Shown here piece by piece: positions 4,001-42,841 of a DNA stretch of 42,974 nt. The notes under the pieces are model-generated. The model had not been told where the DNA came from. It saw only the letters and a program-made list of their open reading frames with translations, and made no database searches. A program made the position numbers and the translations under genes. Every line of letters starts with the position of its first letter. Positions within the stretch are counted from its first letter, which is position 1. This stretch comes from an uncultured Bacteroidota bacterium (GTDB lineage: Bacteria > Bacteroidota > Bacteroidia > AKYH767-A > OLB10), in the NCBI GenBank assembly GCA_903847585.1, contig CAINEC010000017.1, forward strand, positions 1 to 42,974, written 5' to 3'.

Positions 4001-5002
4001 TTGAAAAGCCTTACATCAATCCTTAAAACACTTTTATTTTTAGTAATTGGTGGAGGATTATTATGGCATACCTTTAAAAATCAGGATTTATCTCTCATTG
4101 TTTCGAGAATAAAAAATGCTGATTTATCATGGGTGGCCTTATCCATATTTGTTTCTATTGCTGCCTTAATTAGCAGGGCCATGCGTTGGAAACAATTAAT
4201 TGAACCCCTTGGTTATAAACCACGATTATCATCGGCATTTAATGCTGTTATGTTCGGATATGCTGCAAACATGGCCATTCCTCGTTTAGGAGAAGTTAGT
4301 CGTTGTGGCGCCCTTAGTAAATCTGACGATATTCCATTTGAAAAACTAATTGGAACGGTCATCATCGAAAGAACTTGCGATGTAATCATGTTGGTCGTAT
4401 GTATTTTACTGTCGGCGCTGTTTGAATTTGAATTGTTAGGCGGATTTTTATCAAAACATATTTTTAATCCGATTATTAATGCGGTAGGAAACTCCTATTT
4501 ATTGGGAGTGCTATTAATTGTATTCTTAATCGCTTTCATGATAGCCTATCGATTAATTATAAAACATTACCATCAACACCCCTTCATAGTTAAATTGAAA
4601 TCTTTTTTAAAAGGATTATTGGATGGGTTGGTAGCTGTAACCCGACTAGAGAATAAATGGCTATTTGTTTTCCATTCATTATTTATTTGGGCAATGTATT
4701 TCTTAATGACCTATGTGTGCTTCTTTGCACTGCCCGAAACAAGCGGACTTTCTCCAATGGCTGGACTATTTATTATGGTGATAGGAGCTATTGGAATGAC
4801 AGCTCCTGTTCAAGGCGGTATTGGCGTTTATCATTTATTGGTTTCTGAAGGAATCATTTTATACGGATTAACCCCCGACGACGGGATTACTTTTGCAACA
4901 TTGGTACACTCAGGACAAACATTGCTTTTAGTCCTTTTAGGAGGCATCTCTATGATTTATTTGTTTTTCTTTACCAAACCTATTTCAAGTAAAATGTCAT
5001 GA
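4001..5002 (+). CDS. UPF0104/LPG_synthase_TM-type membrane protein, possible flippase
   Basis: This 333-residue integral membrane protein has about eight hydrophobic helices. The pattern RAMRWKQLIEPLGYKP, then MFGYAANMAIPRLGEVSRC and IGTVIIERTCDV, matches the YbhN/AglD family (PF03706), whose members are related to the membrane part of lysylphosphatidylglycerol synthase and are linked to lipid translocation. There is no C-terminal aminoacyl-transfer domain, so it is not MprF itself. The start is TTG at 4001, 3 bp after the panD stop. Its stop overlaps the rfaE2 start (ATGA), suggesting translational coupling with an LPS-precursor enzyme. The substrate is unknown. Confidence 0.85.
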   Translation: MKSLTSILKTLLFLVIGGGLLWHTFKNQDLSLIVSRIKNADLSWVALSIFVSIAALISRAMRWKQLIEPLGYKPRLSSAFNAVMFGYAANMAIPRLGEVSRCGALSKSDDIPFEKLIGTVIIERTCDVIMLVVCILLSALFEFELLGGFLSKHIFNPIINAVGNSYLLGVLLIVFLIAFMIAYRLIIKHYHQHPFIVKLKSFLKGLLDGLVAVTRLENKWLFVFHSLFIWAMYFLMTYVCFFALPETSGLSPMAGLFIMVIGAIGMTAPVQGGIGVYHLLVSEGIILYGLTPDDGITFATLVHSGQTLLLVLLGGISMIYLFFFTKPISSKMS

Positions 5003-5490
5003 GTTTTAGCGAAAATTTGAATAACAAGGTCTTTACCCGTGAATCTTTGATTAAAAAAATCGAAGAATGGCGCCATCAAAAATGTAAGATTGTGTTCACA
5101 AATGGTTGTTTTGACCTGCTTCATCTGGGACATGTTGACTATTTAGCAAAAGCTGCGGACTTAGGAAACTATTTAATTATTGGGGTTAATACCGATGCTT
5201 CGGTGAGCCGGATTAAAGGACCTTCAAGACCTATTACCGATGAAACATCAAGAACAACGGTATTGGCTGCATTAGAGAGTGTTAGCGCTGTTGTACTTTT
5301 CGACGAAGAAACCCCCTATGAATTAATTAAAGCACTTCAGCCTGATGTATTGGTAAAGGGTGCCGACTATCAAATAGATCAAATTGTGGGAGGTGATATT
5401 GTGTTAGGCCGTGGAGGAGAGATTAAGACCATCGCCTTTGTAGATGGATACTCCACTTCAGCAATTGAAAAGAAAATTAAAGGTCAATAA
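4999..5490 (+). CDS. rfaE2: D-glycero-beta-D-manno-heptose 1-phosphate adenylyltransferase
   Basis: This enzyme transfers AMP to heptose-1-phosphate to give ADP-heptose for the LPS core. The 163 residues form a single nucleotidyltransferase domain: TNGCFDLLHLGHVDYL carries the HxGH motif (H42, H45), followed by NTDASVSRIKGPSRPI, VKGADY and the GYSTSAIEKKI end motif. In many Proteobacteria this domain is fused behind a sugar kinase (HldE). Here it stands alone, as is usual in Bacteroidota. The ATG overlaps the preceding stop by 4 bp. Confidence 0.93.
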   Translation: MSFSENLNNKVFTRESLIKKIEEWRHQKCKIVFTNGCFDLLHLGHVDYLAKAADLGNYLIIGVNTDASVSRIKGPSRPITDETSRTTVLAALESVSAVVLFDEETPYELIKALQPDVLVKGADYQIDQIVGGDIVLGRGGEIKTIAFVDGYSTSAIEKKIKGQ

Positions 5491-5576
5491 TTTGAAAAAT
5501 GTAATGTTTTGCCGTTTTTTATGCGCACCTTTATGGTAGTGAGCGTATATATGCCAAACAAAAAAATTAAACAGAC

Positions 5577-8780: not shown

Positions 8781-10592
8781 TTAAATTAGCTCTACCGAGC
8801 GACGAATAAATCCGCTTAAAGCTTCTCCTTTTAATAACCCTTGAGAAAGCATGGCAAGATCAACAGCCTGACGAATCATTTTTTGTTTTTCCTCGTCAGA
8901 AGAGGCATTTAACACCTTTTTCATTAAAGGGTGGTTAGCATTCATTATCAGATTAAACTGCTCGCCCATACTACCCATAAACTCATAACCACCTCCTGTT
9001 GCTGCCATCTCTTTCATACGACGCATGAATTCAGGTCGTGTAATTAAAGCTGGAGCATCTGATTCTGAAAGTCCTTCAAGCTGAACAAAATACTTTTCTT
9101 TTTCAACTGCCTTTTCGGTTAATTCCTTAATTGTATTTTGCTCTTCTTCGGAAATTAAAATCGGGCGCTTATCTTCTTTTTTAATCAGATTATCTGCCGT
9201 ATCAGCATCCACACGAACGAACGAAGTGTTTTCCAGTTTATACTCTAAAAAATTAACAAAATGACTATCAATTACACCATCCATTTGTAACACATCATAT
9301 CCTTTGTTTTTAGCAGCTTCCACAAAAGCATATTGCTCTTCTAGATTAGATGTATAAGTATAAACCAGTTTGTTGTCTTTATCTGTCTGATTAGGTTCTA
9401 CCGCCGATTTATACTCATCAAACGTAAAGTACTTAGCATCCGTATTTTTAAGTAAGCAGAATGATTTTGCGCGATCATAAAATTTCTCTTCACTTAGCAT
9501 TCCGTATTTAATAAACACCCCGATATCATCCCACTTTGCTTCGAAATCAGTTCTGTTTTCTTTGAATAATTCTTCGAGCTTATCCGATACTTTTTTCAGA
9601 ATATGATTACTGATTTTCTTTACATTCGAATCGCTTTGTAAATAAGAACGACTCACATTTAGAGGAATATCTGGTGAATCAATTACTCCATGTAAAAGCG
9701 TTAAAAATTCAGGAACAATTCCTTCTACAGAATCTGTTACGAATACCTGACGACAATACAACTGGATTTTATTCTTCTGAACTTCTAAATTCTTTTTCAG
9801 TTTAGGGAAGTAAAGAATTCCAGTAAGATTAAAAGGGAAATCTACATTCAAATGGATATAAAACAATGGATCTTCTGCCATTGGATAAAGCTCTTTGTAA
9901 AAAGCTAAATAATCTTCGTGTTGCAATTCACTTGGCTTTTTAACCCAAGCAGGAGTAGGGTTATTGATTTGCTCATCCTTGAACTTTATTGCAGTAGGTA
10001 AAAAGCTACAATATTTGTCAAGCATTGTTTTAATTCTTGCTTCCTCTAAAAACTCTAAAGAGTCTTCATTGATGTGGAGGATAATATCTGTTCCACGATC
10101 TGCTTTTGTGTCGCTGGTCATGGTGTAATCAGGACTACCGTCGCATGTCCAACGGATAGCTTCATTTTCCTGCGCTTTAAAAGAACGAGAATAAATCTCC
10201 ACTTTATCAGACACCATAAAACCAGAATAGAATCCTAATCCGAACTTTCCAATTAAGTTTCCTTCTGTTTGGTCTTTATATTTATTTACGAATTCCTCTG
10301 CTCCCGAAAATGCAATTTGATTGATGTACTTTTCTACCTCTTCAGCGGTCATTCCTAAACCACGGTCTCTGATGGTGAGCGTTTTGTTTTCCTTATCGAT
10401 GATTACCTCAACCGACAATTCACCAAGTTCGGTTTTGTTTTCTCCAATTGAGGTAAGTGTTTTAATTTTTCCTGTAGCATCTACAGCGTTAGCTACTAAT
10501 TCACGAAGAAAAATTTCGTGATCGCTGTAAAGAAATTTCTTGATAATTGGAAAGATGTTTTCCGTTTGAACATTTATTTTTCCTGTAGTCAT
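8781..10592 (-). CDS. htpG: Hsp90-family chaperone HtpG
   Basis: HtpG is the cytoplasmic bacterial Hsp90, an ATP-driven homodimeric chaperone. The 603-residue protein has the GHKL ATP-binding domain at the N-terminus: LRELVANAVDATGK, IRDRGLGMTAEEV and LIGKFGLGFYSGFMVSDK. The middle domain has FPFNLTGILYFPK and LYCRQVFVTDSVEGIVPEFL, with the conserved catalytic-loop Arg in SPDIPLNVSRSYLQSD. The C-terminal dimerisation domain follows. The length is slightly below the E. coli protein. It is monocistronic with its own promoter and terminator. Confidence 0.97.
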   Translation of the reverse strand: MTTGKINVQTENIFPIIKKFLYSDHEIFLRELVANAVDATGKIKTLTSIGENKTELGELSVEVIIDKENKTLTIRDRGLGMTAEEVEKYINQIAFSGAEEFVNKYKDQTEGNLIGKFGLGFYSGFMVSDKVEIYSRSFKAQENEAIRWTCDGSPDYTMTSDTKADRGTDIILHINEDSLEFLEEARIKTMLDKYCSFLPTAIKFKDEQINNPTPAWVKKPSELQHEDYLAFYKELYPMAEDPLFYIHLNVDFPFNLTGILYFPKLKKNLEVQKNKIQLYCRQVFVTDSVEGIVPEFLTLLHGVIDSPDIPLNVSRSYLQSDSNVKKISNHILKKVSDKLEELFKENRTDFEAKWDDIGVFIKYGMLSEEKFYDRAKSFCLLKNTDAKYFTFDEYKSAVEPNQTDKDNKLVYTYTSNLEEQYAFVEAAKNKGYDVLQMDGVIDSHFVNFLEYKLENTSFVRVDADTADNLIKKEDKRPILISEEEQNTIKELTEKAVEKEKYFVQLEGLSESDAPALITRPEFMRRMKEMAATGGGYEFMGSMGEQFNLIMNANHPLMKKVLNASSDEEKQKMIRQAVDLAMLSQGLLKGEALSGFIRRSVELI

Positions 10593-35053: not shown

Positions 35054-36793
35054 TTACGACAATCCTGTAATCACTCCATTCTTATCAATATCCATATGCT
35101 CCGAAGCAGGAGTTGCTGGTAAGCCTGGCATACGCATAATCTCTCCTAAAATAGGAATGATAAATCCTGCACCCGCTGCGTATTCAAATTCACGAACGGT
35201 AATCGTAAAGTTTGTAGGTCGACCAATTTTCTTTTCATCATCTGAAAACGACTTTTGTGTTTTGGCCATGCAAACCGGTAATTTATCAAAGCCTAATTCT
35301 TTAATCGATTTTAATTGCGACTTGGCCGTTGACGTATATTCAACGCCGTTAGCACCGTAAATTTCAGTCGCAATCGTTTTGATTTTATCTTCTACTGAAA
35401 TACTCCAGTCGTATAAAGGTTTGAAATTGTTTTTTCCTGATTCGATTTCACTCACCACTACTTCTGCTAATGCTTTCGTTCCCTCTCCGCCCTTCACGAA
35501 CCCTTGTGAAACAACCGCTTTTACTCCGTGCTTCGCACAAGCTTCAATTACAAAATCGATTTCTTCTTGTGTATCGCTTACAAAATTGTTGATTGCAACA
35601 ACAGGAGTAATTCCGAACTTCTTGCAATTCTCAATATGCTTCTCTAAGTTTTCAAATCCTTTTTGAACACGCTCTAAGCTTGCAGTGTTATACTCTTCTT
35701 TTTTCGCTCCTCCATGATGACGAAGCGCACGAATCGTAGCTACTAATACAATCGTTTCTGGTTTCAGATTTCCATAGCCACATTTTATGTCCATGAATTT
35801 CTCTGCACCTAAATCAGCACCAAAACCTGCTTCTGTTACTACGTAGTCGCCTAACGTTAGTCCCATCTTTGTTGCAAGAATTGTATTTGTTCCTTGTGCA
35901 ATATTTGCAAATGGTCCTCCGTGTAAAATAGCAGGATTACCTTCTAACGTTTGAACTAAATTTGGTTTGATAGCATCCTTTAACAAAATAGCCATCGCTC
36001 CTTGTGCATTTAACTCACGAGCGAAAACAGGTTTCTTATCAAATGTATATCCCACGAAAATAGAACCTAGTCTGCTTTTCAAATCTTCAACATCCTTCGA
36101 CATACAAAGGATAGCCATAATTTCAGAAGCCGCTGTAATATTAAATCCGTCTTCACGCGGAATTCCGTTTGCTGTTCCTCCAATACCAATTACGATATGA
36201 CGCAATGCACGATCATTCATATCCATCACACGTTTCCAAACTACGGTACGCGGATCAATATTTAACGAGCGTGTTTTACTTTGAATATTATTATCGATGA
36301 TGGCTGCTAATAAATTATTTGCTTTTTCAATCGCCGAAAAATCTCCTGTGAAATGTAGGTTAATATCTTCCATCGGTATCACCTGCGAATATCCTCCACC
36401 TGCTGCACCACCTTTAATCCCGAATACAGGTCCGAGTGAGGGCTCACGCAACACTACAATCGACTTCTTACCAATCTTATTAAGTCCTTCGTTAAGTCCA
36501 ATAGAAACAGTGGTCTTTCCTTCACCTGCTGGCGTTGGATTAATTGCAGAAACTAAAATTAGTTTGCTCTTTTTTACTTTCTCCTCATCAATCAAATGTA
36601 AAGGAAGCTTTGCTTTATGTTTACCATAATATTCCAACTCTTCGGCATCAATGCCAATTTTAGCTGCTATGTTTTTGATATGTTGGATATTAGCGCTTTG
36701 CGCGATTTCTAAATCAGAAGGGAAATTGGCCACGTTGTTTATTTTTTGTAGCTCAAATGTATTAAAATAATTGTCAAGATTTTGAAAGGTCAT
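35054..36793 (-). CDS. fhs: Formate-tetrahydrofolate ligase
   Basis: Fhs makes 10-formyl-tetrahydrofolate from formate, THF and ATP, feeding one-carbon units into purine and methionyl-tRNA formylation. The P-loop is TPAGEGKTT (residues 87-95), with [39 protein letters not shown] and [18 protein letters not shown] as family blocks. The ATG at 36793 (MTFQNL) is preferred to a TTG 9 bp earlier. The length, 579 residues, is slightly above many homologues (about 555). Eleven base pairs upstream lies an attC-like arm, so this gene borders the accessory cassette region. Confidence 0.96.
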
Positions 36794-36803
36794 CGCGCCC
36801 AAC

Positions 36804-36838
36804 AGTCGCCAGTTTTTCCATACCCGAAACCGTTATAC
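36804..36838 (-). repeat. Unpaired attC-like arm upstream of fhs
   Basis: Read on the minus strand, positions 36835-36804 match the left arm of the palindrome at 37957 at 25 of 32 positions without gaps, including the identical 13-mer TAACGGTTTCGGG. No partner arm is found within 140 bp on the fhs side. It is inverted relative to the two complete palindromes. I read it as a remnant or end of an attC-like site. Confidence 0.55.
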
Positions 36839-36894
36839 TACAAAAGCCAAATTTGATATCTGCTCTTCTTGTTATCAGATAAATTTTTCTTTTT

Positions 36895-37023
36895 CTAACG
36901 GTCCGCGGCTTTGCGAAGCGCGGGTTTCAGGGCAATAAAGTATCAAAACTAACGGAAACTTCCAAGCAACTTGATGACTTTTTGGAACTCAAATCCCCGC
37001 GTTGTGCAAAACCGCTGTTAGTG
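36895..37023 (-). repeat. attC-like palindrome downstream of the hydrolase gene
   Basis: A 129-bp imperfect palindrome. The ends are CTAAC (36895-36899) and GTTAG (37017-37021). The arms GCGGCTTTGC/GCAAAACCGC and CGCGGG/CCCGCG pair across an unpaired 4-nt spacer, about 16 of 20 positions. The left arm has a 5-nt spacer (GGTCC) after TAAC, the right arm only 1 nt. The middle contains a second hairpin (TTCCAA/TTGGAA). Length, ends, bulges and asymmetry resemble integron attC sites oriented with the minus-strand gene. The hydrolase stop TAA (37018-37020) is within the core. Confidence 0.7.
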
Positions 37024-37960
37024 GTAGTTTTTTATTGTCGCGCCTACGTAATCTAATGCTTTGTCATATGTTTCAATTCCGTGTCCTACATTATTGAATA
37101 TTTTGGTCTCTTTCAGTGTCTTTATATGTCTTTTGGCATTATCTATTGATTTTTGATAAGGAAATAAAAGGTCTTTGTCACCAACAATTAAAAATGTATT
37201 TACTTTCATTTCTTCAAGTTGTCTATCCATATAATATGGTTTTTGCGTCTTGTCTTTATAACGACTTATTGCGAAAACCTCATAGTCAATAAGCATTTTT
37301 TCTGAAAATTCAGATAGCTTATGATTAGGTTTGGAAAAAACTGCTTTATCGAGAAATTTTGACACATTTATTTTAGTCGGTTTTAGAATAGGTAGAAGAT
37401 TAAAATACAGATTTTTAAGAGTCAAGGAAAAGGGTTGTAGGCAACCTGGGTTTAATAAAAAAACTGCTTTTATTCTTTGTGGGCTTACTATTCCCAATTT
37501 CATACAAATCAGTCCACCAAATGAAGCTCCAGCAACAAAAGCATTTCCAATATTTAGTTTGTCAAAAACTTCGGTTGCCCATATACCATAATCTAATGAT
37601 TTAATGTCTGGTGTTGCACCGTCACTTAAATTTGGAAGTCCATTGGTTTCTATCATAAAAATTCTCATTTTATGATTTAAGTTGTCAAGACCTTTATCAA
37701 AGTCCCAAATCAATGAGGTAGTTCTTGCTCCTGGGAAAATGACTAATGTGTCAGAGAATTCTTCTTTTGTGTGAATTCCCCAAACAATTGTTTTGCCAAT
37801 TGAAGTTTCGATTTCATATCGCTCATATTTCCTACCGTTATTTTTTTCTAATTGTGATACCCAATTTTCAAAATAGTTTCGGTCTGTTTTTTCGTCTTTG
37901 AAGTGTGACTTACTGTATATTTTCATTTCTCTCTATGATGTCATTTAAAATTACCACTAA
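36899..37960 (-). mobile_element. Putative single-gene integron-type cassette
   Basis: If the two palindromes are attC sites cut between G and TT of the core, the mobile unit is 1,062 bp. It contains a leader of about 34 bp, one alpha/beta-hydrolase gene and its own attC-like site. The layout (one gene filling the unit, stop codon in the core, no internal promoter recognised) is that of a classical gene cassette. No integrase or attI is seen in the window. Other explanations are a non-integron palindrome family, such as REP-like or transposon-end hairpins. Confidence 0.55.
37018..37926 (-). CDS. Alpha/beta-fold hydrolase (cassette gene)
   Basis: A 302-residue protein of the alpha/beta-hydrolase superfamily without a signal peptide. 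The nucleophile elbow is GASFGG (S135), the acid is in IVGDKDLLFP (D252 or D250) and the His in NNVGHGIETYD (H282), so the triad is complete. The oxyanion region is VIFPGARTTSLIWDF. The substrate cannot be predicted; esterase, peptidase or lactonase activity are all possible. It is the only gene between two attC-like palindromes. Its stop lies in the core of one and its start 31 bp from the other, suggesting arrival as a cassette. Confidence 0.87.
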   Translation of the reverse strand: MKIYSKSHFKDEKTDRNYFENWVSQLEKNNGRKYERYEIETSIGKTIVWGIHTKEEFSDTLVIFPGARTTSLIWDFDKGLDNLNHKMRIFMIETNGLPNLSDGATPDIKSLDYGIWATEVFDKLNIGNAFVAGASFGGLICMKLGIVSPQRIKAVFLLNPGCLQPFSLTLKNLYFNLLPILKPTKINVSKFLDKAVFSKPNHKLSEFSEKMLIDYEVFAISRYKDKTQKPYYMDRQLEEMKVNTFLIVGDKDLLFPYQKSIDNAKRHIKTLKETKIFNNVGHGIETYDKALDYVGATIKNYH

Positions 37961-38088
37961 CGGTTTCGGGCTTGGCGAAGGTGGCGATTTTCAGCACCAA
38001 GGTTGATGCGAAGAACCAAACTTTGATTACCCACAAATGTATCTGCGGAGAAGTGAACCGCCACTTTTGCCAAGCCCGTGTTATACAC
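37955..38088 (-). repeat. attC-like palindrome between the hydrolase and CotH genes
   Basis: A 134-bp imperfect palindrome with ends CTAAC (37957-37961) and GTTATAC (38080-38086). The arms CGGGCTTGGC/GCCAAGCCCG (10 of 10) and TGGCG/CGCCA (5 of 5) flank a partly paired 5-nt spacer, about 20 of 23 in all. As in the first palindrome, the left arm has a 5-nt spacer (GGTTT) after TAAC and the right arm 1 nt, and the left arms share TAACGGT and GGCTT.GCGAAG. The CotH stop codon is 17 bp away. Confidence 0.72.
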
Positions 38089-38102
38089 AGTGCAATTTCG
38101 AC

Positions 38103-41100
38103 TCATTGCTTAATAAATGGTGCGTTAAACATTCTGCCATTTTTTGAAGTGAAGTTAATTATGTAGTAACCACTCGTAAAGCTTGATACGTCAACTACAT
38201 ATTCTCCGTTTCCAGATGCAGAAAAGGGTATATTGTATTTTCTACCCATCGCATCAACAATATTTAGCTTATCTAATATCTCCGAAGAATTTACATGTTT
38301 AATGATTATTTTTTCTGAAGTTGGATTCGGATAAACTAAAATTGATTGTGAAGTCAATTCGTTGATTCCTAACGTTGAAATAAAATATGCTTTGAAAGAT
38401 ATGCTATTTGTTTGAAGCGTGTCCAAAAAGACGGCATTTAAGGTGTCTGAAATCAATCCATTTGCCTCCCAATGAGAAAATTGATAACCCGGCATTGCTT
38501 CTGCTTCTATTTTTATAGGAACTCCATCGAAGTAAATACCGCTCCAAGGATATGAATTGGGAGTAATTGTGCTGATGTTGATTTTCCCGGCATTTGCAGG
38601 AAATACATCAAGGCTGAGGTCAACTTGTTGTGGTAAATTAAACTCGCTTTGAATGTGATTTCTAACTTGTTCTGAGCGGCAGGACAATTCACTTTGATAT
38701 AATAAATGATATTGATTAAAATCGTTCATCTGGCCTGCTACATTGAGCGAATCGCCCCATCTGTAATATTCGTTTGCCATTTCGACAACGGTTTGGTTGT
38801 ACATTGAACTATCTATTGCAAGTAATCTGGATGGTAAATAAAGGGTATTCATTTGATCGGCAAATCGATTAATAAAGTAATTGCGGAATCGATCGTTTTG
38901 AATGCCTCTTAACCAAATATTCAAATGTGGATTATTGGGATCGGCCTGAAAAAGTTGCGATAGAAAATTATGATTGCAATTTACAATCCATGGTTGGTCG
39001 TTGGGTTGTAACCCATAATCCAAGTCATTTAGGATATAACGCCAACGGTAGTTTGTTGCATCCGATCGGTATAGTTTTAAATTGTTGTAATTAAATGCCC
39101 AATCCACATTGTCAATCCACATTTCGGCAATAATGTAGTCGTTGTAGTATTCCATGTCGAAATATTGATCAGCTAGGTTCCAATAATTGGTATCGATTGG
39201 ATTAAGTTGCACCAAACTATCATATGAATTGTAGAATGATTGAACGGAGCCTTCAATTGCACGAAGGTTAAATCCATATTGCGAAGAGGAAGATAGTATT
39301 TCGATGGCATCAGGGTCTGCATTTTCGGAAAGCTCGAACATCTCAGAGTTCGTTTTTTCTCTAACTTCATATAGACCCCAGTATTTCCCGTTGATATATA
39401 CTGAAGCAGGTCTCCATGCTGAATAATAGTTATTGCTTCCATCCGCCATCATTTTACAACTTGCAGCATCTTTATAGGGCAAGGTCAAATAATTGTTACT
39501 TCCATTTCTGAGGTAAAAGTCACCATACTGAAAACGGTTTGGACGGTCCGGTATTACATTGTGCATAATGGGACCATCGCCCAACACGCCATGATCAAAA
39601 TTGATACGAAATGCTCTTTGTGCACGTGAACGTGCTGACCACCCTCCATCCATCATAATTCCCGTTTTTCCGGAATGGATCAGATTATGGTTTGCTGTTG
39701 AGTCAAAATATTCAACGTATGCAGGTTTTAATAAATCCAGCGTGGGATTGTCAAACATTCCGTTAGGGCCGTACAAATTAGATGTGTCTGTAATTACCGA
39801 AATAATTGGGGTAATATGATTCAGGTTAAACAAATAACTGGCTGTTGATGTAGTGCTTGGTAGATAACCATTGATAAATGCCCTTGCTCGTAAAACTGTT
39901 GTTTGTGATATTGGAATAGACGTCCCATTCCATAAACTGGAAGTTGTGTCAGGATCGCTTCCGTCAAGCGTATAAAAGACATTCGCACTGGGCGAATTAG
40001 GGTCCGTGATACTAACAGTGAAGCCTGAAGTGTACACCCCTCCAACCATTGAAAACAAAGGAGCAATGGCATAATTTGTAAAAGGAGTTGAAAAATTGTT
40101 TGTTGCGCCTGGTGTTGGAGTCCCAAATTTTTGAATGTTTGGAGCCGAATCAGGAAAAGATCCAATACTCACACCAACTCCTTGCCCACAATTTACGTTC
40201 AAAGAACTAACTAAAACGTTCGATGGATTATATAGTTTTATTGTCTCACCATTGGAACTTATTTTGAAATTAGTGTGGTTTCTAACTCCAGTTGGGGGAA
40301 TAAAGTTCGTTTGTAATGAATTGATTCCAGTATTTGCTAGACTTAACTCAAACAACTGGAAATTTGTTGGACAAGTTGCGATTACATCAAACGCAAGCGA
40401 ATCTATGTTTCCAGCTGAAAGGCCAGCTGATATCAATTCAGTTGCCGTGTAAAGGTATTGTTGGCGAGCACCTTCGTACCAGTTGCTGTAAGCCGAAGGA
40501 TAGTCGTAGTAGCCATTCTGTAAGGTGCCCGTGCCTACATTGGTTGAGTTAAAGCGAATATTTGGGCGCTGCTGGGCATTGCTTCCACCGCTGAATCCGC
40601 ATGCGGAACCTGGGTAATTCAATGCAATAGTAGCCGAATTATATATTGTGGAACTTTGGGAATGAATGGAATTGCATTGGTAAAACGAGTTGTAGGTGCA
40701 AAGATTCAAAACAATATTTGATACGCCGTCCCAATAGAACGGAGTCGTAAAATGATGGGTGTTCCAACCTGTTTGTGGTGTAAATGTGCTATCTGTTAAA
40801 ACATTTGTAAATTGAGATGATGCGAATCTGTCTTTTCCGCTACAAAAAACTATTATGTACTCATTGGGCTGAATAATTTGATGCGGAAATGACCATTCAC
40901 CTGGGTTTGAATTGTCGCTGAGACTGTAGTTGTAAAGATCTATCGGAGTTGGCCCTGCATTGTAAATTTCAATCCAATCTTCATATTCTCCGTCTTCATC
41001 TAAGAGGGTGGGGTAATTTTTATTGCTCCCCTCGTTGATTACTAATTGGCCAAAACATACGTTCGTACATAAAACAGCGATCGTAATAAATACTATTTTA

Positions 41101-41117
41101 CAAGTTCGCATTAACAT
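38103..41117 (-). CDS. Lamin-tail/CotH surface protein with T9SS sorting domain
   Basis: A 1,004-residue exported protein. Signal peptide 1-23; lamin-tail (LTD) first half 24-97 (QLVINEGS, DEDGEYEDWIEIYN); an inserted module about 98-280; LTD second half 281-340 (HTNFKISSNGETIKLYNPSN); a chitobiase C-terminal-like domain 348-430 (VFYTLDGSDPDTTSSLW). A CotH domain spans about 435-760 with YLRNGSNNYLTLPYKDA, VYINGKYWGLYEVREK and the acidic RYILNDLDYG (D698, D700). A T9SS sorting domain from about 935 (VYPNPTSEKIIIKHV) ends in FIKQ. CotH proteins are atypical kinases that phosphorylate proteins. The ATG follows the RCC1 stop directly (TAAATG). Confidence 0.9.
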   Translation of the reverse strand: MLMRTCKIVFITIAVLCTNVCFGQLVINEGSNKNYPTLLDEDGEYEDWIEIYNAGPTPIDLYNYSLSDNSNPGEWSFPHQIIQPNEYIIVFCSGKDRFASSQFTNVLTDSTFTPQTGWNTHHFTTPFYWDGVSNIVLNLCTYNSFYQCNSIHSQSSTIYNSATIALNYPGSACGFSGGSNAQQRPNIRFNSTNVGTGTLQNGYYDYPSAYSNWYEGARQQYLYTATELISAGLSAGNIDSLAFDVIATCPTNFQLFELSLANTGINSLQTNFIPPTGVRNHTNFKISSNGETIKLYNPSNVLVSSLNVNCGQGVGVSIGSFPDSAPNIQKFGTPTPGATNNFSTPFTNYAIAPLFSMVGGVYTSGFTVSITDPNSPSANVFYTLDGSDPDTTSSLWNGTSIPISQTTVLRARAFINGYLPSTTSTASYLFNLNHITPIISVITDTSNLYGPNGMFDNPTLDLLKPAYVEYFDSTANHNLIHSGKTGIMMDGGWSARSRAQRAFRINFDHGVLGDGPIMHNVIPDRPNRFQYGDFYLRNGSNNYLTLPYKDAASCKMMADGSNNYYSAWRPASVYINGKYWGLYEVREKTNSEMFELSENADPDAIEILSSSSQYGFNLRAIEGSVQSFYNSYDSLVQLNPIDTNYWNLADQYFDMEYYNDYIIAEMWIDNVDWAFNYNNLKLYRSDATNYRWRYILNDLDYGLQPNDQPWIVNCNHNFLSQLFQADPNNPHLNIWLRGIQNDRFRNYFINRFADQMNTLYLPSRLLAIDSSMYNQTVVEMANEYYRWGDSLNVAGQMNDFNQYHLLYQSELSCRSEQVRNHIQSEFNLPQQVDLSLDVFPANAGKINISTITPNSYPWSGIYFDGVPIKIEAEAMPGYQFSHWEANGLISDTLNAVFLDTLQTNSISFKAYFISTLGINELTSQSILVYPNPTSEKIIIKHVNSSEILDKLNIVDAMGRKYNIPFSASGNGEYVVDVSSFTSGYYIINFTSKNGRMFNAPFIKQ

Positions 41118-42527
41118 TTATTCTAATACAATTTTGAATGTTTGATTAAACATGTCACCAATTCTTAAAAAATAAAGGCCTTTCGAGTTATGGCTTAAAT
41201 CAATGGTTGTGTTTTCTGATATACGGCCTTCTGATTTAACTTCTCCTAACAGATTGTAAATTTGGAAATCAGAATCAACATACTCTTGGGCAGCGACCAG
41301 AAAAAGCAAACCGGATGTTGGGTTTGGAAAGAGGGTTGCCTCAAAGTTTTTTGGGGCCTCAAATATTGCAAGTGTAGTACAATTGACCGTCTGAGGCGTT
41401 GCTTGATTCAGGTTATTTCCTATACCCATTTGACCTAGACCATTACTCCCCCATGCCCACAGAGTTCCATCTGATTTGATTCCCGAAGAAAATTCCATAC
41501 CTCCACTAATTTTAATAAAATTGTTATTTATGGAAGATAATATCATTTGAGGTAAGGTTTGAACACCTCCTACATTTCCATTACCCATTTGGCCAATGTA
41601 ATTTCTTCCCCATGACCATACTGTTCCATCGTTTTTAATTGCGAGATCATGATCTGCTCCCGCACTGATATCTGTCCAATAATTATTTGTTCCAATTTGA
41701 GATGGTATCGGAATAACTACAAAAGGAGTGTCTGTAGTAATGTCGTAACCCCATGACCAAATGGTCCCATCAGTTTTAAGGGCCAATAAATGAGAGTAAT
41801 TACCAAAATCCAGTTGGCTCCATGATGTATCAGTTCCAATTTGTATCGGTGTATTATTGAGTGGCAATCCGTTATTTACAAAGTTTGCGGTATTGTCCCC
41901 CCAGCACCAAAGTGTTCCATTAAATTTAATAGCTCCAGAAAAGTTCGCGCCAGCACTGATTTGCTTCCAATCGTTATCGCTCCCTATTTGCAATGGAGTA
42001 GTTTGATAGATTGGTGGACAAAATGTGCAGGTGCTTAATCCATTACCAACCTGTCCCGTATTATTTAATCCCCATGCCCATAACGTATTGTTTGATTTTA
42101 ATCCAAGAGCATGTTGCCCTCCAGCGCTGACTTCAATCCAATCATAATCATTTCCAATTTGAACTGGGTAGTAGGTGTTTAAATTTGTGGTGTTATTTCC
42201 TCCGATAGCAGGATCTGGGAATGACCCCCATGCCCATAATGATCCATCGTTTTTAATCCCCAATGAAAAATTTTCACCCGCTGAGATGTCTGCCCAATTA
42301 TTTTGCGTCCCTATTTGAATCGGAGTAATGTAATATGGAATTGTCGGCAAGCCAATACCCAAATCACTGGAGCTGCCCCACCCCCACAAGGTTCCATCAT
42401 TTTGAATTGCCAATTGATGGCTGGAACTGGCACTCACTTTGTCCCAGCATTGTGCAAACAAAATATTTTGATGAAGGATAAACAATAGTAGTATTAAACA
42501 ATGTATTCTGCGTTTGAGACTTTTCAT
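41118..42527 (-). CDS. RCC1-repeat propeller protein with T9SS sorting domain
   Basis: A 469-residue exported protein starting at ATG 42527 (MKSLKRRIH; an earlier frame start adds 9 residues without a signal-peptide pattern). Signal peptide 1-26 (ending NILFAQ). Seven RCC1-type repeats follow, each with 'W..iSAG..fslgIKnDGtLWaWG', for example ADISAGENFSLGIKNDGSLW, giving one complete seven-bladed propeller. The C-terminal sorting domain starts LFPNPTSGLLFLV and ends RIGDMFNQTFKIVLE. RCC1 propellers bind proteins or other ligands; the partner is unknown. It is translated directly before the CotH gene. Confidence 0.91.
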   Translation of the reverse strand: MKSLKRRIHCLILLLFILHQNILFAQCWDKVSASSSHQLAIQNDGTLWGWGSSSDLGIGLPTIPYYITPIQIGTQNNWADISAGENFSLGIKNDGSLWAWGSFPDPAIGGNNTTNLNTYYPVQIGNDYDWIEVSAGGQHALGLKSNNTLWAWGLNNTGQVGNGLSTCTFCPPIYQTTPLQIGSDNDWKQISAGANFSGAIKFNGTLWCWGDNTANFVNNGLPLNNTPIQIGTDTSWSQLDFGNYSHLLALKTDGTIWSWGYDITTDTPFVVIPIPSQIGTNNYWTDISAGADHDLAIKNDGTVWSWGRNYIGQMGNGNVGGVQTLPQMILSSINNNFIKISGGMEFSSGIKSDGTLWAWGSNGLGQMGIGNNLNQATPQTVNCTTLAIFEAPKNFEATLFPNPTSGLLFLVAAQEYVDSDFQIYNLLGEVKSEGRISENTTIDLSHNSKGLYFLRIGDMFNQTFKIVLE

Positions 42528-42841
42528 GCTTATTTCTTTTTTGATTAATTCCAAGTGTAATACTAAATTTTCATTTTTTGTTAAGGTTCGGCTCTAGCTG
42601 TCTTGTTTGCATTGTGAATAACGTTTTGGAGCTAAAAGAAGTGCGGATTTGAAACCGAAATATTTCCTACCCACACAATATTATTTAGTTGCCGAAATAT
42701 TGCCTCTTTTTTTGCCTACATAAAAATAAGAAACTTTCGCGAAGCGACAACTTGTAGGCAAAAAAACTTATACTTCCGCCCGCATTTTTTTTAGGTACTG
42801 TTAAGGGCTGGCTTTGCTTTATTTCTATTCTTGGCTATTTG
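42528..42841. other. 314-bp spacer with repeats; possible degenerate attC-like site
   Basis: No gene is seen. The spacer holds a perfect 14-bp inverted repeat, TTTTTTTGCCTACA (42707-42720) and its complement (42753-42766), with a 32-nt loop. A direct repeat CCGAAATATTKCCT lies at 42655-42668 and 42692-42705. A pair of outer arms, TAAC...CTAAAAGAAGTGCGG (42619-42646) and CCGCATTTTTTTTAG...GTTA (42780-42803), could be the ends of a 185-bp degenerate attC-like site. That is longer than usual and poorly paired near the ends. The promoter of the RCC1-CotH operon should also lie here but is not recognised. Confidence 0.4.

Follow-up and report, generated by a model that had tools for sequence, protein, structure and literature searches.

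The window, which is the whole stretch of DNA analyzed here, is a contig (C17) of 42,974 nucleotides from an uncultured Bacteroidota bacterium whose genome comprises 2.99 Mb in 203 contigs. In it, a gene for an alpha/beta hydrolase is flanked by two long palindromes, termed e1 and e2 (Table 1). Beyond e2 lie genes for an RCC1-repeat protein and a CotH/LTD protein, and a weaker and longer site, termed site0, is found upstream of these. On the other side, e1 is close to a dnaE-like remnant and the chromosomal gene fhs. All of these features are on the minus strand.

Table 1. Features of the array region, with positions counted over the whole window. R1 is the covariance model described in the text; e1 and e2 are both among its 22 model sequences, whereas site0 is not.
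Feature	Position	Strand	Basis
fhs (formate-tetrahydrofolate ligase), chromosomal flank of array	35054..36793	-	Pfam FTHFS E 3e-261
dnaE-like 3' coding end, remnant abutting array	36794..36885	-	matches dnaE 3' end before fhs in sister genomes G004 and G002, and full-length dnaE on contig C54 of the same genome (G000)
attC-like site e1, candidate 3' end of hydrolase cassette	36892..37024 (AAC..GTT 36897-37019)	-	R1 87.6 bits, E 4e-19; detector score 13.5
Hydrolase cassette body (predicted), 5' end GTTAGTGGTAATTTT at 37961, 3' end AAAACTACCACTAAC at 37017	37017..37961	-	15-nt end complementarity, single A/G mismatch at position 11
Alpha/beta hydrolase, 302 aa, cassette gene	37018..37926	-	Pfam Abhydrolase_1 E 2e-10
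attC-like site e2, candidate 3' end of RCC1+CotH cassette	37954..38087 (AAC..GTT 37959-38082)	-	R1 132.8 bits, E 2e-30; detector score 18.5
Second cassette (less certain), 4.5 kb, two genes	38080..42622	-	Pfam; ends 13/15 complementary
CotH/LTD protein gene, Por secretion tail	38103-41117	-	Pfam
RCC1-repeat protein gene, Por secretion tail	41118-42554	-	Pfam
attC-like site0, weaker and longer, upstream of RCC1 gene	42615..42807	-	R1 38.5 bits, E 7e-7

The TAAC...GTTA cores of e1 and e2 span positions 36896-37020 (125 nt) and 37958-38083 (126 nt) of the minus strand. A preliminary description made from the sequence had located both palindromes correctly, and its lengths of 129 and 134 nt are slightly too long when measured from core to core. 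Its account of the spacers is exact, the core being separated from the stem by 1 nt on one side and by 5 nt on the other, and the two sites indeed have arm motifs in common (the inner stem and conserved mismatches) while differing in their central sequence. Folding of e1 and e2 as single strands beats that of shuffled sequences modestly (z -2.2 to -3.0). A geometric detector that scores both sites above 13 returned 0 matches at a score of at least 13 in 0.56 Mb of simulated sequence. The case for e1 and e2 as candidate recombination sites appears strong and is mainly comparative, folding by itself being modest evidence.

The two ends of the predicted hydrolase cassette, GTTAGTGGTAATTTT and AAAACTACCACTAAC, form an inverted repeat (I4) that the preliminary description overlooked, as it did site0. 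Because these ends are reverse complementary over 15 nt with one conserved mismatch, the arrangement is sensible only if the cassette circularizes. The hydrolase is absent from the other genomes of the same order that were searched, and its relatives (62-63%) occur only in G042 and G055, which belong to other families. Thus, the gene is no fixed neighbor of fhs, and the synteny with fhs that would have told against a cassette was not found. The earlier proposal that the hydrolase is a gene cassette is strongly supported by array polarity, by the complementarity of the circular ends, by the presence of the same sites behind different genes, and by the absence of the gene from same-order genomes. 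We also considered the relatives in G042 and G055 as possible cassettes and rejected them, as they have no detectable flanking sites and no matching ends.

The position of site0 suggests that the RCC1 and CotH genes together form a two-gene cassette. Its R' segment, GTTATTCACAATGCA, agrees with the reverse complement of the R'' segment of e2 at 13 of 15 positions. This cassette is less certain than the first, the upstream site being weak and long. It encodes two large predicted secreted proteins and is far above the median size of the cassettes seen in this study.

In the sister genomes G004 and G002, a dnaE-like 3' end is located upstream of fhs without these sites and with differing upstream DNA. 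These genomes exhibit the locus without the array, which falls short of a clean one-cassette difference, and the comparison turned up no strain that differs by a single cassette. The window keeps just the last part of the dnaE-like end before the array begins. Full-length dnaE is carried on C54, where it is followed by other genes and by a site cut by the contig end. The window array may therefore occupy the interval from dnaE to fhs, and C54 or C155 may hold its continuation, with assembly gaps intervening. A half-site at 36806-36838, which has an 80% inverted match to e2, was rejected as an att site and is coding sequence of the dnaE-like 3' end common to G004 and G002. This 3' end is repeated beside variable genes in the genome (window 36794-36885; locus L328 on C54, 8445-8853 and about 9890-9969) and before fhs in the sisters, as if it were an insertion hotspot.

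Additional members of the site family are present elsewhere in the same genome. Two copies of e2 with 90-91% identity reside on C155, whose minus strand carries, in order, a gene for a tyrosine recombinase (279 aa), a first cassette, a site, a second cassette, a site, and a third cassette that is truncated where the contig ends. The first cassette encodes a protein of 196 aa that is lipoprotein-like by eye and has no family match, and the second encodes a GmrSD/DUF262 protein. Both complete cassettes start with GTTA plus a short sequence and finish with its reverse complement (GTTAGCAGC/GCTGCTAAC and GTTATGCCCA/TGGGCATAAC), and an attI-like boundary is evident behind the recombinase. Further R1 sites occur on C39, C31, C54 and C167, and a search of the whole genome by direct DNA similarity revealed no second copy of e1. 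The recombinase on C155, adjoining the same sites, is the only close relative of the array recombinases in the genome. The preliminary description had suggested that further copies be sought and had pictured an array with no integrase nearby, which is true of the window contig and not of the genome. It had also proposed a search for a recombinase with the IntI patch; the partner enzyme is patchless and scores under the IntI cut-off.

To describe the family, we built the covariance model R1 from 22 aligned sites of this genome and its relatives, most of which have an AAC-to-GTT distance of 117-120 nt. Strong covariation is observed, with both partners varying in 18 of the 23 inner stem pairs, and the score of 0.46 compares with 0.114 for shuffled controls (0/500) and at most 0.095 for slid ones. 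As in attC sites, the alignment indicates a hairpin conserved in structure and not in sequence, with a GTT/AAC core. Column 23, an A facing column 111, is never paired in the 22 model sites, and among 78 sites of standard geometry this position is A.C in 61 and a Watson-Crick pair in 5. The arms of the bottom strand are the more stable ones in 50 of these 78 sites, which is a modest bias. The cores depart from the GTTRRRY/RYYYAAC form of attC sites and consist of GTTR plus variable bases, as in GTTAGTGG and GTTATGCC. When run on class 1 integron loci, R1 found no match (best E 6.7).

Application of R1 to 34 loci yielded 75 usable sites. None of the clusters in these loci is of mixed strand, and the longest ORF points in the array direction in 31 of 34 cassettes. 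For 42 consecutive site pairs, the 5' end of the cassette and its reverse-complemented 3' end agree at 5.69 of 8 positions beyond GTTA, versus 2.73±0.20 for permuted partners (maximum 3.64) and 2.9 when the two sides of a single site are compared. This result was replicated with 37 cassettes of named organisms (5.51 versus 2.63±0.22 permuted; 2.48 within sites). Both sets were found with one model; however, R1 covers just four bases outside TAAC/GTTA and models them as unpaired, and matches between ends of different sites can therefore not be an artifact of the model. Agreement is high at positions 1-9, drops to 5% at position 11, returns to 65-76% at positions 12-15, and is near zero at positions 16-17. 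As judged from these alignments, the cassette end is an arm of defined length (15 nt) that includes a conserved mismatch. Some of the unmatched pairs span long gaps in which a site was probably missed. Because complementarity is found within a cassette and not within a site, the cassettes appear to be excisable as circles.

Relatives of the C155 recombinase were found in 30 of 61 related genomes searched, and a scan of genome contigs provided 80 named recombinase loci, including those of Algoriphagus ornithinivorans, Arundinibacter roseus, Flavobacterium aciduliphilum and F. enshiense. A total of 69 of the 72 R1 sites in these loci are located downstream of the recombinase on the same strand. 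The model had been built from sites found by routes other than recombinase loci, and the sequence searched was greater upstream (623 kb) than downstream (351 kb). The binomial p value of about 1e-47 is a guide only, because sites of one array are not independent. The exceptions are single R1 matches that lie upstream or on the other strand (L247 5361-5494, L249 2590-2722 and L227 86-220). Where at least 1.5 kb is available downstream, 24 of 47 loci have a site, as do 9 of the 11 best-matching loci with such room (within L198-L217). Many recombinase relatives have no detected site; for the most part, these are distant relatives or lie close to the end of a contig.

At most of the 33 loci examined, the stop codon of the recombinase gene is followed at a distance of about 70-160 nt by the start of the first cassette, often with TATAA or TATAC just before it. 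Its placement beside the recombinase suggests that this boundary is equivalent to an attI site. A scan of the recombinase and attI region for sigma-70 type promoters gave nothing above chance, and Bacteroidota promoters differ from that type. At one recombinase locus (L034), a 99-bp imperfect direct repeat (87%) is present at 4298-4396 and 5441-5539, with the second copy in what by eye is a Sua5-like gene, and a Bro-N gene is located between the copies, just upstream of the recombinase.

The C155 recombinase scores 205 bits against TIGR02249 for IntI, which has a cut-off of 265, and 218.8 against the XerA-type model NF040815, which has a cut-off of 220. Its catalytic R, K, H, R, H and Y columns are invariant among 19 relatives, indicating that an intact tyrosine recombinase lies beside the array. 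The spacing from the catalytic K to HxLRH is 63-65 (one 68), versus 67-71 in E. coli XerC/D and 105 in IntI, the latter taken from 5 of 14 sequences since the pattern was misplaced in 9. The specific insertion of IntI-type integrases (I2, patch) is lacking. In a quick tree, for which sequences were sampled by similarity to the query and in which some branches are long, the array recombinases and IntI together are set apart from XerC/D with a support of 97, and the IntI sequences (support 100) form a branch inside the patchless set.

R1 sites are present in 42 of the 61 relatives. Across the phylum, 124 of 296 sampled genomes have them, including 50 in the class of the window. Near-identical sites (96-98%) occur in genomes of other families, which points to horizontal spread. 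In G065, four R1 sites on the same strand are located upstream of an IntI-family gene over the cut-off (L295 2836-5509), an arrangement unlike both classical arrays and those described here.

Some of the apparent cassettes carry antibiotic resistance genes. The tnpF/xerD products encoded beside tet(X3) and tet(X5) on plasmids are 50% identical to the C155 recombinase, and in the tree they cluster with the Arundinibacter roseus enzyme, which is encoded at a locus with five sites. On Acinetobacter and pHH1107 plasmids, xerD/tnpF is found upstream of tet(X5) (L301 4465-5368) or tet(X3) (L302 8001-8920), and tet(X) follows a cassette-type 5' end, with tet(X5) starting behind GTTATGTGCCATTTT. No downstream site was found at these two tet(X) loci. 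A Bacteroides xylanisolvens plasmid (L305 1210-5335) has four sites that flank aadS, ere(D) and tet(X2), and the ends of each of these cassettes match at 14 of 15 positions with the sole mismatch at position 11. The same 14/15 ends, with the mismatch at position 11, accompany tet(X2) in Empedobacter brevis. Resistance genes are also found between or beside R1 sites at L306, L307 and L308, and lnu(H) and catB of E. brevis adjoin R1 sites.

Thus, the window very probably contains part of an integron-like cassette array. The underlying cassette-capture system is apparently widespread in Bacteroidota and undescribed, as no account of such a system was found in the full-text literature searched (bioRxiv and most subscription journals being outside its scope). 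We regard the system as integron-like and withhold the unqualified term 'integron' because the IntI insertion and the GTTRRRY core were sought and are not present. One phrase of the preliminary description, an unnamed palindrome family with the same logic, is the more exact wording, given that R1 finds no class 1 attC and that the recombinase fails the IntI cut-off and has no IntI insertion.

In the model we propose, a cassette would be composed of one gene (rarely two), starting between the G and the TT of GTTRNNNNN and finishing with an attC-like site of about 125 nt that can fold. Upon excision as a circle, the two cassette ends would meet and lengthen the hairpin by the 15-nt arm (9 bp, the conserved A.C mismatch, and 4 bp). 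The tyrosine recombinase, encoded on C155 in line with its own array, might then bind the hairpin arms of the folded bottom strand and cut next to the GTT core. Cassettes would be exchanged with other sites or with the attI-like site that follows the recombinase stop codon by about 70-160 nt, and their expression could occur by read-through. The enzyme is without the helix that permits single-strand recombination in IntI, which weakens the case for a folded substrate; recombination of a folded strand by a patchless enzyme nevertheless seems likely to us.

Alternatively, the same cassette system might employ a recombinase that acts on double-stranded DNA, wherein the hairpin merely keeps two inverted binding arms alike. 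In its favor, the enzyme lacks the IntI insertion and has the XerC/D-like spacing noted above. However, the arms covary instead of preserving one binding sequence. Moreover, pairing of the 15-nt arms at the cassette ends requires the circular form, and these arms contain the conserved A.C mismatch. We consider this alternative rather unlikely.

It is improbable that the region is a canonical integron or a CALIN, in which ordinary attC sites are moved by an IntI protein with the usual insertion and the integrase has been lost or is located elsewhere. The logic, the GTT core and the spacer asymmetry are the same, classical IntI proteins over the TIGR02249 cut-off are found in 84 of the same 296 genomes, and R1 weakly matches sites beside some IntI loci (L295 and L288). 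In contrast, TIGR02249 matches nothing in the genome under study at the search threshold, and among the matches listed only one (G097) is in the class of the window. Moreover, R1 sites adjoin patchless recombinases, R1 finds nothing in class 1 loci, and the core after GTT is not RRRY.

Transcription or RNA elements (terminators, stability hairpins) and REP-type repeats accumulated between genes would also produce long conserved hairpins behind genes, and covariation suits folded RNA as well as folded DNA, but we judge this explanation very improbable, since the complementary ends are separated by an entire gene and would not be neighbors in a transcript of the array, no Rfam family matches the palindromes above chance, and all clusters keep to one strand, unlike dispersed repeats. 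Likewise, the palindromes did not prove to be copies of a REP or transposon-end family, as had been considered at the outset. REP/RAYT palindromes resemble the present sites in being scattered over chromosomes. To our knowledge, however, REP elements are not polar, are not linked to tyrosine recombinases, and have no matching gene ends or cassette-end logic.

A further-reaching interpretation, which we consider slightly more likely than not, is that a separate Bacteroidota integron lineage uses an I2-less integrase to recombine folded attC-like cassettes, that cassette capture may predate the I2 helix, and that the cassettes of this lineage include the resistance genes tet(X), aadS and ere(D). 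A study of IntI evolution (PMC7790495) argues that the I2 helix and single-strand cassette recombination are confined to integron integrases and that acquisition of I2 was the founding step, with no intermediates known. Because IntI is nested in the patchless family in the quick tree, capture may be older than the helix. With a large I2-less family whose arrays share this cassette logic and have structured sites, the order of events becomes testable with natural enzymes. Furthermore, one complete integron, that of Salinibacter ruber, was named in Bacteroidetes proper with IntegronFinder 2.0 (PMC9024848), whereas 124 of 296 genomes carry R1 sites, and thus a large mobile gene pool has probably been overlooked.

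Among known systems, integrons are similar in having polar arrays, sites conserved in their fold, ends that are complementary in the circle, an attI-like boundary by the integrase, and mobile genes that include resistance determinants. They differ in that the recombinase described here lacks the IntI insertion, scores below the cut-off of TIGR02249, is encoded in line with its array, and is associated with a 15-nt cassette-end arm and a conserved A.C mismatch in place of RYYYAAC/GTTRRRY. Site length is also mostly constant here, near 125 nt, and the class 1 sites that we compared have an extra unpaired base where the present sites have A.C mismatches in the stem. The window array resembles a CALIN in that its contig has no recombinase and it abuts a chromosomal gene; however, its sites belong to the R1 family and not to IntI attC sites, and assembly gaps may separate it from the C155 recombinase.

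A classification of tyrosine recombinases (PMC8138268) includes, among the simple ones, an integron-like subgroup with incomplete conservation of the insertion; unlike in the present system, the passages on this subgroup assign no sites or cassettes to such recombinases. The closest parallel to resistance gene mobility is provided by the xerD-tet(X) modules of Acinetobacter and Chryseobacterium (PMC7494873, PMC11194056), where xerD is a relative of the recombinase described here (50% identity) and tet(X) has cassette ends of the R1 family. The relevant sections of these papers treat xerD and tet(X) as mobile elements that occur together and mention neither recombination sites nor a cassette mechanism. 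If tet(X), aadS and ere(D) indeed move as cassettes, then the system would supply a mechanism for the xerD-tet(X) linkage noted in these resistance studies.
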